Assembly (NCBI GenBank): GCA_013334325.1
Contig: JAAXXT010000026.1
Location: 1-32,796 of the forward strand
Origin: Erysipelotrichaceae bacterium
Lineage (GTDB): Bacteria; Bacillota_I; Bacilli_A; Erysipelotrichales; Erysipelotrichaceae
DNA length: 32,796 nt
Reading direction: 5' to 3'
The position numbers and the translations under genes are program-made. Under the pieces are notes generated by a model. The model made no database searches, was not told the DNA's origin, and saw only the letters and a program-made list of their open reading frames with translations. Below, one piece after another: positions 26,532 through 32,796 of the stretch; the stretch's first letter is position 1, and each line of letters opens with the position of its first letter.

Positions 26532-28757
26532 CTATTTACCATCTGTTGCGAAGAGATTATAGAGATTAACAACGCTCTTGCGTTGATTTTCACTAATGAT
26601 CGCTAAGACTTCATCGGTATACTGAGCTTGTATTAAGAGATTACCTGACCCATTATTGAATACCAAGGAGATAAGCGGTGTTTCAGAGATACCTCTTTGA
26701 GTAATATAAGGTAAGATCTGAATCAACTGATCATCACTGAGGTTTACATAAGTATAGGTGTTAGGTTGAGATTCTTCATAGCTCGATTCTAAATCAAAGG
26801 TATATCGTTGAGAGGATTGAGGCATCGCAACTCTAAACATTGGGATGTCCACAATCGTTGCGGGAGAACTTTCCTCAGGAAGAATCAACACTGCAGATCT
26901 GAGGGCAGTTTCTGGGGCAGGATTCAAATTGACGCCTGTCGCAGTCAACACAGCGATCACATGGGTGAAACGTGTATCGACATCTATCACAGAGGTCATA
27001 CAATTTGAAGTCTTGAACTTACAGGTCGTTAGATTGAGATAACCCATTGCGGTGTAGTCGGTAGAGATCGCTTGCGCATCACTAAGCGCTGCGATATCCA
27101 TGAGATAAGCTGTCTTGAGCTCGGATAAATTAATTTTTAGTGGGGATATAGAAGCTTTTCCCACTGGGGTGACCCAATCAGCCATATTCACATTAGGATA
27201 CTCATCCATGTTGGCTAGATTAGGCGCATTGACTTCGATGATATCGGGTGTGTTGTTTAGGGTCAATAAGCTATTAGTCCATTGAAGAGGAACTGTATAG
27301 CTTCTTACCAGATCACCACCTGATTTTAGATGATAAGTAATCTTCACTTGAGCCGAGTTGATCGAATTGTTGATGAAGAAAGGTAAGGTCTCATAGGACT
27401 TCGTGTAACCTTTTTGCTCTTCGATCATAGTGACTAAGTTGTTGTTAAATGCGTAATTGTAATTATAGTCGATCCATTTGTATTCCGCGATGATGATGCG
27501 ATGCAACTCATAAACAGCTGAGATATCATCGGCTGTGGTCAAATGCAAGGAAGATGCTGGAACAGCCATCATGTCACGATAATAGCTAGGTGATGACATG
27601 ATGAAGTTAGAGTTATCATAATAGTCGAAATCGATTGATTCGATGTTAGATAAGCTTGGGATCCTAGAGGCATATCCAAAGCCCTTGCTCCATAAACCAC
27701 CGATCAATAGACTAAAGGCAACTGCTGCGATCACTAGATAATGAATGAAAGCTTTGGCGAGATGCTTGAAGCCTCTTTCTGCGATCGCATCCATGACCAG
27801 ATAGAGCACCATACTGAAGAAGATCGGGAAGATAAAATTGATAGGCGCATAGTACGAGGTATAGTAGAAAGAAGAATTCATACTGTAAATGACACAATAT
27901 AAGAAGATGATAAACAAGATGATTAGTAGACCACTTACGGTAGGGAAGAAGGTCTTATTGGTGAAAGGTTTCTCAGCTTTTTCAGATTTACGTCTGAGAT
28001 AGAACTGATTACTGATGGCGATGATGACACCAGATAGAACCAACCAATAGAGCCCATTCACATAACCACTGGCCCACATACGACCACTGATCTCAAAACC
28101 ACTCTCAAATAAGGCAAAGATAGGGAAGATGATCCCAACCCATTTGGTAAGATCTCCTATCGAGAAACCTAAGAGGATGGTTTGAACGAATAGGATATAG
28201 GCACCATAGGCTAAGATAGGTATAAAGTTAAGTGTCAATGAATACAAGAAAGCATCTAAAGAAGTCCCTGTATTCATCATCGTAAACAAGACCACACTTA
28301 AGATCGCAGTTGCGATCGAAATCAAGGCAAAGTATCTTTCGAAGATGACCAAGAAATTAAAGGATCCTGTCATCATCATCAATCCACCACTGAACCAACC
28401 GATCGTAAACGGAACAACCACGATCGCAATCGCTGCGATAAGCGAGGTAATAAACAGATCTGAACGTTTGATTGGTAAAGCGTGGTATACATCTAAGTTC
28501 TTCTTAGAATTCATATAGCTCATGATCTGTAAAGGAATCATGAAGGCAGTAAACATCAATAGACTTATGTTGAAGAATAGCCCTACTTCTCGTATCCCAT
28601 CATAACTGTCTGATCTAGATAAGATCTTAACGGTCAATCCTAAGACAGGATAAAGGGTCATCATCGCAATACTCATGATAAACATATAACGGGCATTGCG
28701 TTTTAATAAGAATCTTAGGTATTCTGTTTGAAGTCTCAGTTTAAACAAGTTGACCAT
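26532..28757 (-). CDS. ABC transporter permease with large C-terminal extracytoplasmic domain
   Basis: The membrane partner of the upstream ATPase, 741 residues from the chosen start. About ten hydrophobic segments fill residues 20-356. The VYHALPIKRSDLF loop is typical of YtrC/ABC-2 type permeases. The last roughly 380 residues contain no membrane segment, are beta-rich and should face outward; they include ATGVNLNPAPETALRSAVLILP. I do not recognise that domain. An in-frame ATG at 28784 exists, but GGAGG nine bases before 28757, inside the ATPase gene, favours the later start. The ATPase overlap is 17 bases. Substrate is unknown; cell-envelope stress or peptide antibiotic response is suggested only by the YtrA-type regulator. 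Confidence 0.8.
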   Translation of the reverse strand: MVNLFKLRLQTEYLRFLLKRNARYMFIMSIAMMTLYPVLGLTVKILSRSDSYDGIREVGLFFNISLLMFTAFMIPLQIMSYMNSKKNLDVYHALPIKRSDLFITSLIAAIAIVVVPFTIGWFSGGLMMMTGSFNFLVIFERYFALISIATAILSVVLFTMMNTGTSLDAFLYSLTLNFIPILAYGAYILFVQTILLGFSIGDLTKWVGIIFPIFALFESGFEISGRMWASGYVNGLYWLVLSGVIIAISNQFYLRRKSEKAEKPFTNKTFFPTVSGLLIILFIIFLYCVIYSMNSSFYYTSYYAPINFIFPIFFSMVLYLVMDAIAERGFKHLAKAFIHYLVIAAVAFSLLIGGLWSKGFGYASRIPSLSNIESIDFDYYDNSNFIMSSPSYYRDMMAVPASSLHLTTADDISAVYELHRIIIAEYKWIDYNYNYAFNNNLVTMIEEQKGYTKSYETLPFFINNSINSAQVKITYHLKSGGDLVRSYTVPLQWTNSLLTLNNTPDIIEVNAPNLANMDEYPNVNMADWVTPVGKASISPLKINLSELKTAYLMDIAALSDAQAISTDYTAMGYLNLTTCKFKTSNCMTSVIDVDTRFTHVIAVLTATGVNLNPAPETALRSAVLILPEESSPATIVDIPMFRVAMPQSSQRYTFDLESSYEESQPNTYTYVNLSDDQLIQILPYITQRGISETPLISLVFNNGSGNLLIQAQYTDEVLAIISENQRKSVVNLYNLFATDGK

Positions 28758-29631
28758 AACCTTTAGCCTCCATTTCATAGACAAAGACTTCTTCCATCGT
28801 TATTGGGATTTCTTCCAATAGGATCGGTTGAGTGCTTTCAATCAAGGTTCTGATTGCGCTGATGTCGCCTTTGGCGACCATCAGATAGACATGACCACGC
28901 TGTTCTAGATGAAGCGGTTTGAGTTCATTGAAGACGTCTCCTGCTTGTTCTTTAGAATAGCCGATCTGAAGTTTATGATAGTTACTACGAATGTTTTCTA
29001 CTTCGTCTTGAATAGAGATCGTATTGTGATCTAATAAAGCGATACTGTCACAAATGTCTTCTAGTTCTCTTAAGTTATGAGAAGAGATGACCACAGTGAT
29101 TTGACGATTCATCAACTCATCGGTGATCAAACGTTTAAACATCAATCTCATGACAGGATCTAAGCCATCAAAGGCTTCATCCAAGAGAAGGACTTCAGGA
29201 TCACAAGATAAGGCTAAGATAACACTGGCTTGACGCTTCATTCCCTTAGAGAAATCAGTGATCTTATCATTCTCATTGAGTTTAAAATGATTCAAGAGTT
29301 TCTGATACATTGCTTCATTGAAGGTCGAATAGAAGATCTGATAGAATTTCTTCATTTCTTTTAAACTGGACTGAGTCAAGAAGAAAGGATCATCAGGCAC
29401 AAACATGATCTTCTTTTTAGCTGAAGGATTGTCATAAATGATTGCGCCTTCTAAAGTGATCTGTCCTGCATCTGGGCTTAATACTCCACTCATTAAACGT
29501 AAAAGGGTGCTTTTACCGGCACCATTGGGTCCTACTAGGCCATAGATGGAGCCTTTAGGAATATCCCAATTGATGTTTTCAAGGACCAGTTTATTGTCAA
29601 AGGATTTTTTAATGTTCTTTAAGGCAATCAT
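28741..29631 (-). CDS. ABC transporter ATP-binding protein (YtrB-like)
   Basis: The ATPase of the GntR-controlled ABC transporter, 296 residues. It shows Walker A GPNGAGKST, the Q-loop replaced by a VPDDP segment common in this subgroup, signature FSKGMKRQ, Walker B VLLLDEAFDGLDP and the switch SSHNLRELE. A C-terminal extension of about 80 residues (LQIGYSKEQ to GYGQLV) is typical of drug- and antibiotic-exporting ATPases. ATGA overlaps couple it to the GntR gene upstream, and its 3' end contains the ribosome site and start of the permease. Confidence 0.92.
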   Translation of the reverse strand: MIALKNIKKSFDNKLVLENINWDIPKGSIYGLVGPNGAGKSTLLRLMSGVLSPDAGQITLEGAIIYDNPSAKKKIMFVPDDPFFLTQSSLKEMKKFYQIFYSTFNEAMYQKLLNHFKLNENDKITDFSKGMKRQASVILALSCDPEVLLLDEAFDGLDPVMRLMFKRLITDELMNRQITVVISSHNLRELEDICDSIALLDHNTISIQDEVENIRSNYHKLQIGYSKEQAGDVFNELKPLHLEQRGHVYLMVAKGDISAIRTLIESTQPILLEEIPITMEEVFVYEMEAKGYGQLV

Positions 29632-29999
29632 TGTCTTTTCTCCTTGTAGATGCTGCTGACCAACTCGATCATGGTTTTTTCCGTGACCCCGAAATGTTTC
29701 ACATATTCGATGGTCTTACGGATCTCGCTGAGCTTTGAAGCTGTCAGTTCACTATGGTCTTTAGGTGTTGTAGATACATAATACCCTTTTCCAGTCAGAG
29801 AATAAACAAAACCATCTCTTTCTAGTTCGGTATACGCTTTTACGACGGTGTTGGGATTGATTCCCAAGTCTTTGGCCATCGTACGTATTCCGGGTAATGG
29901 ATCATCATGAACCATAATCCCACTGGCGATCTGAGCGAGGACCTGTTCGATGATCTGCTGATAGATGGGTGTACTACTTTGTCCGTTTACAACAATCAT
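29628..29999 (-). CDS. GntR family regulator, YtrA subfamily
   Basis: A short (123 aa) repressor with an N-terminal winged helix and a small C-terminal dimerisation segment, the hallmark of the YtrA subfamily, whose members control adjacent ABC transporter genes. The winged helix shows PIYQQIIEQVLAQIASG, PGIRTMAKDLGINPNTVVKA and YTELERDGFVYSLTGKGYYV. It starts after AAGGAGG and is first in the operon with the ATPase and permease. It likely binds the palindrome in its own promoter. The inducer is unknown; in Bacillus YtrA responds to cell-wall-active antibiotics. Confidence 0.92.
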   Translation of the reverse strand: MIVVNGQSSTPIYQQIIEQVLAQIASGIMVHDDPLPGIRTMAKDLGINPNTVVKAYTELERDGFVYSLTGKGYYVSTTPKDHSELTASKLSEIRKTIEYVKHFGVTEKTMIELVSSIYKEKRQ

Positions 30000-30020: not shown

Positions 30021-30060
30021 ACTGTATTATTATAGTAATACAGTTGAGTCAAAATGTCAA
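30021..30060 (-). promoter_or_regulatory. Promoter and operator of the GntR-ABC operon
   Basis: ACTGTATTA (30021-30029) and TAATACAGT (30036-30044) are perfect inverted arms around six bases. Minus-strand TTGACA (30060-30055) and TACTAT (30037-30032) with a 17-base spacer give a promoter whose -10 lies inside the palindrome. Autorepression by the GntR protein is the obvious reading. Confidence 0.72.
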
Positions 30061-30073
30061 ATAGAGCGCTTAT

Positions 30074-30116
30074 TCAACCTTGAGTTGAGTGACAAGTGCT
30101 TAAACTATGGGATAAT
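30074..30116 (+). promoter_or_regulatory. Operator-like inverted repeat and promoter of first XRE gene
   Basis: TCAACC-TTG-AGTTGA (30074-30088, one mismatch in the arms) directly precedes a -35-like GTGACA (30089-30094), 16 bases and GATAAT (30111-30116). The predicted start near 30123 leaves a leader of about 16 bases. The same layout with the same spacings recurs at 31752-31794 before the paralogue. Confidence 0.65.
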
Positions 30117-30138: not shown

Positions 30139-31551
30139 ATGAAACAAAACAAGGTGGGGCTCTTTATCCTAGAGCGACGTAAACATCATTCAATGACACA
30201 AAGCGATCTGGCCAGAGCACTGCATGTCAGCGATCAAGCCGTTTCTAAATGGGAACGTGGTTTAAACTACCCTGACATCAATTTGATTGCGCCTTTAGCG
30301 GATCTTTTAAAAGTAAGTATCAATGAATTACTTCAAGGAGAACTCAGTGTGAGTGACATCAAAACAGAAGACGCTGTAAAAGAAGTTTTAGACTTTTCTT
30401 CAACGGTCATAAAAAAGAAAAGTAAACGTTTCTCAAAAGAGATCATGTTGCTTAGATTGGTGATCGCTTTATTGGTGGCAGGAGCTGGATCGCTTTATTT
30501 CGATAATCAACATCCTGCCTATACCTTAATTCCAATGACAGACACTAATCTAGAACTCTTTGAGAATGAGTATAAGGATATGGAATTCTTATCCTCTTGG
30601 CAAGGTTGTGGAGAAACAGGCGGACAAGTTTATACGATCTATAGACAAAGTATCTTTGGGATAGGGACAGACATTGAAGGAATTGCTTATAAATATGAGC
30701 CTGAAACAAATAACTCCAGTATCTTTTGTCCAATGACCTTAGAGATCAATACCCAAAACAAAAATCTATTGAATGGGATGAGTGCTTATTCAACAGGAAC
30801 CAATCTATTAAGTGGGACATTAGAAGTTGCGGTGATGATGGATAATGTGCCTAAGGTTACGTATACGATCTATGATCACAGTAAAGGATCAGATGATCAA
30901 AATGTACAATTGATGACTCGTTTTACGATAGAGATCTGGGGCTTTACGATCAATGGGAGCACCCAAGCGATAAATGTAGCGTCTCCTAAAGAGGGTAGTT
31001 CAAAAAGACTCGTTCCTGAATCTTATCTCAACGAAATCAAAACCCAATTGACTTCCTTAGTTCAAGCCATTAGTTTCTCTCAAGTCATATCGCGCGATCT
31101 CGATAACTTAACGACTCGTTTCTATCGTGGTTATCGTGAATTCTCGGGCGGTGAATATGGGTTCATTGAAAGAAGAGGCACTGTATTAGTCGATGGGGAG
31201 TGGATGATCACCCAGACTTTCTCTTCACCCAATACGATCGCGACCTTTACTTATGATCAATATGGGAGAAGGTTCTCAGTCGATATCGAAAGAGAACCAA
31301 GCTCATCAGAAATACATGGGATCTTTCAAGTCATAGAAGTAGTGGTTTTCAATCGAGTTCAATGGTATTCCAGTAGTGGGGCAGATCAATGGGTCTTCCC
31401 ATCAGGGTATTGGGATGACATAAGTTATCGTTATACTGAAGTATCTACACCATGGTTGATCGATCTCATAGGCAGTGATATGACCATCATGTGTATTGAA
31501 CAATACACTCATTATCGTATCCAATGGCCTAAGCTAGGCATCATCTCTTAA
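30139..31551 (+). CDS. Membrane-anchored XRE-family regulator, copy 1
   Basis: A 470-residue protein joining a cytoplasmic DNA-binding domain to an outer sensor-like domain. Residues 4-66 form an XRE/Cro helix-turn-helix (MTQSDLARALHVSDQAVSKW, then ERGLNYPDI). A charged linker (70-101) contains TEDAVKEVLDFSS. One membrane helix follows at about 102-121 (IMLLRLVIALLVAGAGSLYF). Residues 122-470 should lie outside and are beta-rich with no recognised motif. Cys157 and Cys197 align with two cysteines of the paralogue and could form a disulfide. An upstream in-frame ATG at 29965 lies across promoters and is rejected; 30139 follows AAGGGAAG. It resembles one-component membrane regulators in layout. 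Ligand and targets are unknown. Confidence 0.82.
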   Translation: MKQNKVGLFILERRKHHSMTQSDLARALHVSDQAVSKWERGLNYPDINLIAPLADLLKVSINELLQGELSVSDIKTEDAVKEVLDFSSTVIKKKSKRFSKEIMLLRLVIALLVAGAGSLYFDNQHPAYTLIPMTDTNLELFENEYKDMEFLSSWQGCGETGGQVYTIYRQSIFGIGTDIEGIAYKYEPETNNSSIFCPMTLEINTQNKNLLNGMSAYSTGTNLLSGTLEVAVMMDNVPKVTYTIYDHSKGSDDQNVQLMTRFTIEIWGFTINGSTQAINVASPKEGSSKRLVPESYLNEIKTQLTSLVQAISFSQVISRDLDNLTTRFYRGYREFSGGEYGFIERRGTVLVDGEWMITQTFSSPNTIATFTYDQYGRRFSVDIEREPSSSEIHGIFQVIEVVVFNRVQWYSSSGADQWVFPSGYWDDISYRYTEVSTPWLIDLIGSDMTIMCIEQYTHYRIQWPKLGIIS

Positions 31552-31583
31552 GAAAACTTCGACCCTTTCGAAGTTTTCTTTTG
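31551..31583 (+). terminator. Terminator after first XRE gene
   Basis: AGAAAACTTCGA (31551-31562) pairs perfectly with TCGAAGTTTTCT (31568-31579) around a five-base loop, followed by TTT. It separates the two paralogues into independent units. Confidence 0.85.
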
Positions 31584-31751
31584 TTTAAACGACTCCCTTC
31601 ATAGAAAGGTTTACAATAGGACTTAAGGAAAATAAAATTACCTATAGACTTCAAAAAGAAGTTTGTCAGATCTGTAGTGAAAAAATCCTTAAGACTAGAA
31701 ATGAGACTGGAAACTAAGTATTAGTAATAAAACAATCCTTTGTTTAGTGAT

Positions 31752-31794
31752 ACAACCTTGGGTTGTGTGACATTAAATAACGCTATGACATAAT
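31752..31794 (+). promoter_or_regulatory. Operator-like inverted repeat and promoter of second XRE gene
   Basis: ACAACC-TTG-GGTTGT (31752-31766) is a perfect inverted repeat directly before GTGACA (31767-31772), 16 bases and CATAAT (31789-31794). The predicted leader is about 15 bases. Arrangement and sequence match the first XRE promoter. Confidence 0.65.
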
Positions 31795-31815
31795 GGGGAA
31801 GCCAGAGGACAGAAA

Positions 31816-32796
31816 ATGGATCAAATCAAGGTTGGGGTGTTTATCTCACAACAGAGAAAAAAACAACAGATAACACAAAGCGAATTGGCCAATGCTTTGT
31901 TTGTCAGTGAACAAGCTGTTTCTAAATGGGAACGTGGCTTAAACTATCCAGATATTGCACTACTGTTTCGTTTGGCAGACCTTTTGAAGGTTTCAGTCAG
32001 TGAAATACTTCAAGGAGAACTCAGTGTGTCAGAGATCAAAACAGAAGAAGCAGTTAAAGAAGTTCTAGAGTATTCGTCAACCCTTATCAATAGAGAGAAG
32101 AAAAGCTTCTCAAAAAGAATTATGATTCTTAGATTGGTGATTGTTTTGATTATTGCAGGATTTATCAATTTTTATTTTCAAGTTCGGTCTCCTCAAATTT
32201 CTATGTCTCCATTTACCTCATCAGATACATTATGGCTCAACTATCAATTCAGAGATGTCCAACTCTTATCGACATGGGACTATTGTGGAAACATCAACGA
32301 TATACAGTTGTTTGCGATTTCGCAAAAATCGTTTTTTGAAGATAAGTCAAAAGTGGGCTATGCGATCAAGTTTCCTACTAGACTCGATGCTTCTATAGAA
32401 AAATCGATGGTTTGTCCTGCTTTAGTAGAAGTCAATCTTTCAAACAGCAACACTCTTGATTCCCTTTCCGTTAATAAAGGAGGGAAAGCGCTGTGGACCA
32501 GTCAGCGACAAGTGAAGCAGACTGAGACCACCCCTATCTTAAGCAGTACGATCGATGGATCATCTTTAGTGATCGATTATACGATTTACAATAAGAGCAC
32601 AAATGATACCCAGCTAGAATTGTATACACGATTCTCTATGACGGTTTCAGGTTATACCATCAACGGGAGCACAGCTTTAACTACGATTGAACTCAACAAA
32701 GACTTAGTTATAGTTAATCAGATCCCTAAAACATATCTGGATGCCTTGGAGAAAGGTTTATTAAGTTTTATATTGAAAGTAGAAGACAGTCAGAAG
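31816..32796 (+). CDS. Membrane-anchored XRE-family regulator, copy 2, 3'-truncated by window
   Basis: The reading frame from ATG 31816 (after AGAGGACAG) stays open for 327 codons to the window end, so the gene is incomplete here rather than broken. It is a paralogue of the preceding gene over its whole visible length: XRE helix-turn-helix (SELANALFVSEQAVSKWERG, 22-41), the TEEAVKEVLEYSS linker, a membrane helix (about 102-121, IMILRLVIVLIIAGFINFYF) and an outer domain with the shared STWDYCGN and VCPALVEV segments. Cys157 and Cys200 match the cysteines of copy 1. DNA-binding helices are nearly identical while the outer domains have diverged, which suggests the same operator but a different signal. 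Confidence 0.82.
   Translation, partial: MDQIKVGVFISQQRKKQQITQSELANALFVSEQAVSKWERGLNYPDIALLFRLADLLKVSVSEILQGELSVSEIKTEEAVKEVLEYSSTLINREKKSFSKRIMILRLVIVLIIAGFINFYFQVRSPQISMSPFTSSDTLWLNYQFRDVQLLSTWDYCGNINDIQLFAISQKSFFEDKSKVGYAIKFPTRLDASIEKSMVCPALVEVNLSNSNTLDSLSVNKGGKALWTSQRQVKQTETTPILSSTIDGSSLVIDYTIYNKSTNDTQLELYTRFSMTVSGYTINGSTALTTIELNKDLVIVNQIPKTYLDALEKGLLSFILKVEDSQK

Follow-up and report, generated by a model that had tools for sequence, protein, structure and literature searches.

The stretch of DNA analysed here (the window) is a whole contig of 32,796 nucleotides (G000:C46) from the genome of an Erysipelotrichaceae bacterium, G000, which comprises 1.95 Mb in 51 contigs. At the end of the window two genes follow one another on the forward strand, and each of them encodes a DNA-binding head, a single membrane helix and an outside domain in one chain, with the topology predicted from hydropathy and charge. 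Gene 1 (30139..31551) encodes a protein of 470 residues, and an orthologue that is 96% identical is present in another genome of the genus, G007. The mechanical open reading frame of gene 1 is longer (528 codons); nevertheless, the start at 30139 is preferred because it fits the alignment with gene 2, a candidate -10 element located at 30111-30116 and the near-identical copy in G007. An intrinsic terminator (31550..31580, forward strand) with a 13-bp stem and a T run comes after gene 1, and this stem is also present in G007. Gene 2 (31816..32796) is cut by the end of the window, which contains the first 327 of its 459 codons. Positions 32670-32796 are an exact overlap of 127 nt with the first 127 nt of another contig of the same genome (C40), and the frame closes in that contig at base 526 (L027 1-526), giving a full product of 459 residues.

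In both proteins an HTH_3/XRE domain is followed by a basic linker, a single membrane helix and an outer domain of approximately 340 residues. The HTH_3 domain (Pfam PF01381) occupies residues 11-64 in each of them (30169..30330 in gene 1, E 4.4e-12; 31846..32007 in gene 2, E 5.5e-12; forward strand), with scores of 46.3 and 46.0 bits versus a Pfam cut-off of 23. Exactly one hydrophobic segment per protein exceeds the threshold, at residues 102-120 in both; its mean Kyte-Doolittle value is 2.11 in gene 1 (30442..30498, forward strand) and 2.44 in gene 2 (32119..32175, forward strand). This helix is preceded by basic residues (IKKKSKRFSK and INREKKSFSK, respectively), and the combination of hydropathy and charge fits an N-in/C-out orientation. 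The outer domain of gene 1 (30502..31548, forward strand, residues 122-470) contains cysteines at positions 157, 197 and 452; that of gene 2, of which the window holds a part (32179..32796, forward strand), has cysteines at 157 and 200, and its cysteine 447 is encoded in C40. The original prediction, made from the letters of the window, described a tandem pair with this same order of domains and placed the cysteine pairs correctly (157/197 and 157/200); it missed the third cysteine near the C-terminus, which is retained in a relative from the genome G003 that has neither the HTH nor the cysteine pair.

The two proteins are 69% identical in the HTH, 68% in the linker, 60% in the membrane helix and 29% in the outer domain, in agreement with the strong outer divergence that had been noticed at first reading. 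The conserved recognition helix says little by itself, because QAVSKWERG-like sequences are usual among family relatives. A count of paralogues found no further protein with an HTH_3 domain and a membrane helix among the HTH_3 matches checked in G000, i.e., the pair are the only such proteins found in the genome. Matches to anti-phage defence models (PADLOC) were confined to about residues 2-109, mainly the HTH, with nothing beyond, and plasmid records matched the HTH and the linker/helix part only, none of them covering 80%.

The outer domain and the history of the pair

Searches of the outer domain against Pfam, NCBIfam and PHROGs yielded only weak matches at the level of chance (for gene 2, e.g., phrog_28811 with E 0.011 and DUF6613 with E 0.1), the other model matches being located in the HTH; no PDB sequence matched at E<=10, and no described cytoplasmic domain was matched. 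A profile of the outer domain detected relatives in 3 of the 8 genomes of the genus (G000, G003 and G007), and nothing credible in 316 genomes of the order or in 395 sampled from the class. No relative was detected in viral contigs, where a viral origin was sought. One profile match in G165 (E 3.5e-4) sits in an HD-domain enzyme and was discarded as chance. Structure prediction with six sequences gave no convincing fold, with a mean pLDDT of 46.9 for the full-length protein and 47.1 for the outer domain alone; the partly confident part of the model is restricted to the C-terminal half, about residues 320-410 of gene 1. With a model of this low confidence, Foldseek detected no match in the PDB at E<=0.001, and for the C-terminal half (model pLDDT 47) the best VIA-align Z was 7.0, with several unrelated folds tied; YpeB scored Z 5.8 and 4exr Z 5.2. 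Several of the structural matches are PepSY-like or lipoprotein folds, which may serve as a lead only.

The relative in G003 is a protein of 353 residues with a membrane helix and the outer domain, without the HTH. In addition, a membrane protein of 260 residues encoded approximately 12 kb into C40 matches the C-terminal half of the outer domain (hhalign E 5.8e-8); its gene adjoins a PadR gene and a HAAS-like membrane gene, the HAAS match of the latter being below the Pfam cut-off. Since the outer domain is found in G003 without an HTH and, as its C-terminal half, in the C40 protein, it is a module with several carriers. Between gene 1 and its G007 copy this domain shows 16 nonsynonymous and 40 synonymous codon changes; these counts, which are not a dN/dS estimate, suggest that it is under purifying selection. 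As regards the neighbours of these carriers, the HTH-less gene of G003 adjoins a gene for a secreted protein of 151 residues without any Pfam match (L029 3654-5223, G003:C38), and the two products could possibly form a co-component pair. The row of genes in C40 (L036 64-3328, about 11-14 kb of the contig) encodes PadR, the HAAS-like membrane protein, the outer-domain relative and two lipoproteins.

The original prediction held that the pair arose by duplication with divergence of the sensing half only. A plain tandem duplication, in which the outer domains diverged through freedom or positive selection, is a possible though somewhat disfavoured history, and it would be compatible with the function proposed below; the two genes have the same orientation, a common upstream module and full-length homology. 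However, their synonymous divergence is unequal between the halves: at fourfold-degenerate sites genes 1 and 2 differ at 11/31 positions in the inner half and at 22/32 in the outer half (Fisher p = 0.012), a comparison limited by small counts and by alignment error in the outer half. The contrast is weaker among the codons of identical residues (31/81 inner versus 50/94 outer, p = 0.07), and the control, i.e., gene 1 against its G007 orthologue, is flat (7/47 versus 22/131, p = 1). Likewise, the C-terminal half of the gene 1 outer domain shares more identity with the HTH-less protein of G003 (39%) than with gene 2 (28%). The outer halves seem to be the older ones as judged from the synonymous sites, and given that this contrast is absent in the orthologue control, conversion or module swapping fits the pair better than the slow divergence of one half that had been supposed. 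Conversion or domain swapping is also plausible because an apparently younger inner half coincides with an outer domain that occurs without an HTH. The contrast at synonymous sites supports conversion of the inner half, or an exchanged outer half, to a moderate degree. The more elaborate proposal that a genus-specific outer sensor is swapped among DNA-binding carriers, with conversion keeping the DNA-binding half and the operator uniform, is doubtful at present; if true, the swapping of outer domains onto uniform heads would be a way in which new inputs are gained for one fixed switch.

Upstream regions and genomic surroundings

Upstream of gene 1, the palindrome TCAACCTTGAGTTGA (30074..30088, no strand assigned; core CAACCTTGRGTTG), which is identical in G007, abuts a putative promoter (30089..30116, forward strand) formed by the -35 element GTGACA (30089-30094), 16 nt and an extended -10 element TGGGATAAT that ends at 30116. 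A similar module precedes gene 2, where the palindrome ACAACCTTGGGTTGT (31752..31766, no strand assigned; core at 31753-31765) abuts a putative promoter (31767..31794, forward strand) with the same -35 (31767-31772), 16 nt and an extended -10 element TGACATAAT ending at 31794. Both promoters agree with the consensus at 10/12 positions, and the modules can be written as TCAACCTTGAGTTGA-GTGACA-N16-GATAAT and ACAACCTTGGGTTGT-GTGACA-N16-CATAAT. The outermost pair of the palindrome is T-A in gene 1 and A-T in gene 2, so that both stay palindromic, and the spacers between the hexamers are largely unlike. When the two upstream regions are compared in 20-mers, the best match reaches 18/20, versus 16 or less in 60 shuffles. 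In a consensus scan promoter-like matches were no commoner in this region than in shuffles, and support for the promoters therefore rests on their being shared by the two genes.

The core CAACCTTGRGTTG occurs exactly at two places only in the 1.95 Mb genome, before gene 1 and before gene 2, and in G007 once, before the gene 1 copy. For this reason, the palindrome is likely a shared operator of both genes. For the idea that the two proteins act on the same DNA sites, an identical promoter-plus-palindrome module that is unique in the genome thus provides a definite candidate; the shared module could in part be a relic of the duplication, as the inner halves agree at 20/31 fourfold sites. With two exact sites only, no regulon is visible beyond the pair. 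One-mismatch sites are present at four other places, which lack a convincing promoter context, and one-mismatch versions of ACAACC-N3-GGTTGT were not above a reversed control.

The palindromes could instead be operators of another regulator, e.g., the soluble XRE protein encoded in contig C38, which would control the pair while the pair acts elsewhere. In G000, ACAACC-N3-GGTTGT has two exact occurrences only, one preceding gene 2 and the other no more than about 120 nt upstream of the C38 gene; it is kept upstream of the G007 copy of the latter and, with one mismatch, of an XRE gene of G004. Because these relatives carry such half-sites, this type of palindrome goes with XRE genes here, and it is probably the kind of operator that these XRE proteins use. 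In contrast, the palindrome of gene 1 and its G007 copy is the variant TCAACCTTGAGTTGA, which is less like the C38 type, and the common -35 and spacing are specific to genes 1 and 2; besides, autoregulation is common among XRE genes. That the C38 protein binds the gene 2 site has to be taken seriously as an alternative; as an explanation of both palindromes, control by another regulator seems unlikely. The soluble XRE genes of G000 (L001 around 1767, G000:C38) and G004 (L013, G004:C106) have as their conserved upstream palindrome TATACAACCATAGGTTGTATA or a close version of it.

An operon encoding a GntR protein, an ABC ATPase and a membrane protein (26532-29999) diverges from gene 1, the start codons being about 140 bp apart, and this arrangement is kept in G007. 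The operon is present in most genomes of the genus, and its membrane protein in 7/8. It is preceded by the palindrome ACTGTATTATTATAGTAATACAGT (30021-30044), nearly identical in G007 and G003, which is probably the GntR operator. Beyond gene 2, C40 continues with what we take, from their sequences, to be a VIT1/ferritin-like gene, mnmG, rsmG, parB and parA, neighbours that would place the pair near the replication origin. The slot between the GntR/ABC operon and the VIT1-like gene/mnmG varies: it holds genes 1 and 2 in G000, a gene for a membrane protein of 144 residues in G003 and an acetyltransferase-like gene in G005. In G007 gene 2 is absent from the locus and other genes come after gene 1 (L028 4722-11756, G007:C43), presumably, as judged from their sequences, a RelE/HigA-like pair and then a gene for a very large YD-repeat-like secreted protein.

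From this layout it might be proposed that the pair regulates the GntR/ABC operon as a membrane-stress sensing unit, even more so because a promoter-like site on the GntR side has the gene 1 palindrome about 14 bp behind its -35. Nevertheless, G003, G005 and G006 have the operon without the XRE pair, which weakens this link; in G003 the operon has its own conserved GntR-type palindrome and no XRE gene beside it, and in G000 gene 2 has the same site as gene 1 though it does not adjoin the operon. Such a role is therefore improbable, and since the content of the slot varies among the genomes of the genus, the pair is accessory and a fixed tie to the ABC operon is unlikely.

A proposed sensor pair and its known counterparts

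The reading that we favour, with a probability of about 0.55, is that genes 1 and 2 encode self-regulating, membrane-integrated one-component sensors with a shared candidate operator. The XRE head would dimerise on the 15-bp palindrome (half-site ACAACC / TCAACC) directly upstream of each -35, and the basic linker and the single helix would signal to this head which state the extracytoplasmic domain is in. An outside signal could then cause the head to bind or leave the palindrome, shifting the expression of its own gene and of the twin gene. Given that both genes carry the same site, each protein probably regulates itself and its neighbour. The outer domain would be a module that is specific to the genus and can be exchanged, and the signals that the two proteins relay to the shared sites are probably different or modified ones. 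Of the transmembrane one-component sensor proposed in the original prediction, the architecture is present in both sequences; sensing and the control of transcription would follow from the mechanism outlined here. Regarding the sign of regulation, lambda CI at PRM contacts sigma from a site next to the -35. The centre of the palindrome is about 42 bp before the inferred start, beside the -35, and because this position would suit a similar contact, activation by the occupied sensor is slightly favoured over repression.

A system of two XRE regulators with a membrane helix, each with one 15-bp candidate site and with outer domains that are also found without an HTH in the genus, offers a way to study how signals from outside are conveyed to an XRE head and how an old switch acquires new inputs. 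If the pair were no more than an orphan regulator duplicated in the ordinary way, its chief interest would be that it provides a candidate operator and a new family of outer domains.

RodZ, which together with MreB belongs to the Rod complex and is a membrane protein, shows the order HTH, one membrane helix and outer beta domain. Despite this likeness, it is very unlikely that genes 1 and 2 encode RodZ-like structural anchors, with an HTH that binds a cytoplasmic partner instead of regulating and an outer domain that works at the cell wall, given that the Pfam models of the RodZ HTH and C-terminal domain matched neither protein (E<=1) nor the gene 1 outer domain (E<=5), that HTH_3 is well above its cut-off, that both gene fronts have the palindrome, and that an outer domain confined to 3/8 genomes of the genus and a variable, non-core slot are not what a core gene of cell shape would show.

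Membrane-integrated one-component regulators have been described before, chiefly those of the ToxR/CadC type (PMC5936718). These have winged HTH heads, whereas genes 1 and 2 have an XRE/HTH_3 head with no match to the winged-helix domain (Trans_reg_C), and an outer domain unrelated by sequence. VtrA/VtrC represents fast-evolving co-component systems (PMC9214523), and the pair resembles it in having a membrane-tethered DNA-binding protein with a fast-evolving outer domain; unlike that system, no VtrC-like partner was seen beside genes 1 and 2, which are homologous to each other, each with its own HTH. A likeness to HAAS-PadR (PMC11237479) is found in C40, where the relative of the C-terminal half of the outer domain lies beside PadR and HAAS-like genes, so that an outside module of this kind is found with another regulator linked to the membrane; the difference is that in HAAS-PadR the DNA is bound by PadR, a protein of its own.

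The closest counterparts in architecture are regulators from the same family of bacteria (e.g., L043, L044, L045, L050, L056 and L040, and L023 in the genus), which have an HTH_3 domain, a linker, one helix near residues 85-125 and a large C-terminal domain. XRE-headed proteins with a membrane helix are common in the family, where a profile of the HTH, linker and helix matches 71/96 genomes, some of the matches being to the HTH alone. These regulators differ from the pair in the outer domain, which the outer-domain profile detected in none of them. In L023 (1465-2676, G004:C3) the XRE domain, the membrane helix and an outer domain of RCC1 repeats are found in a single protein, and the outer domains of the rest have no Pfam match above the cut-off. 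In a limited search of the open literature no paper devoted to XRE-type membrane-tied proteins was found. This kind of protein is already known; it is the outer domain and its swapping between proteins that look new.
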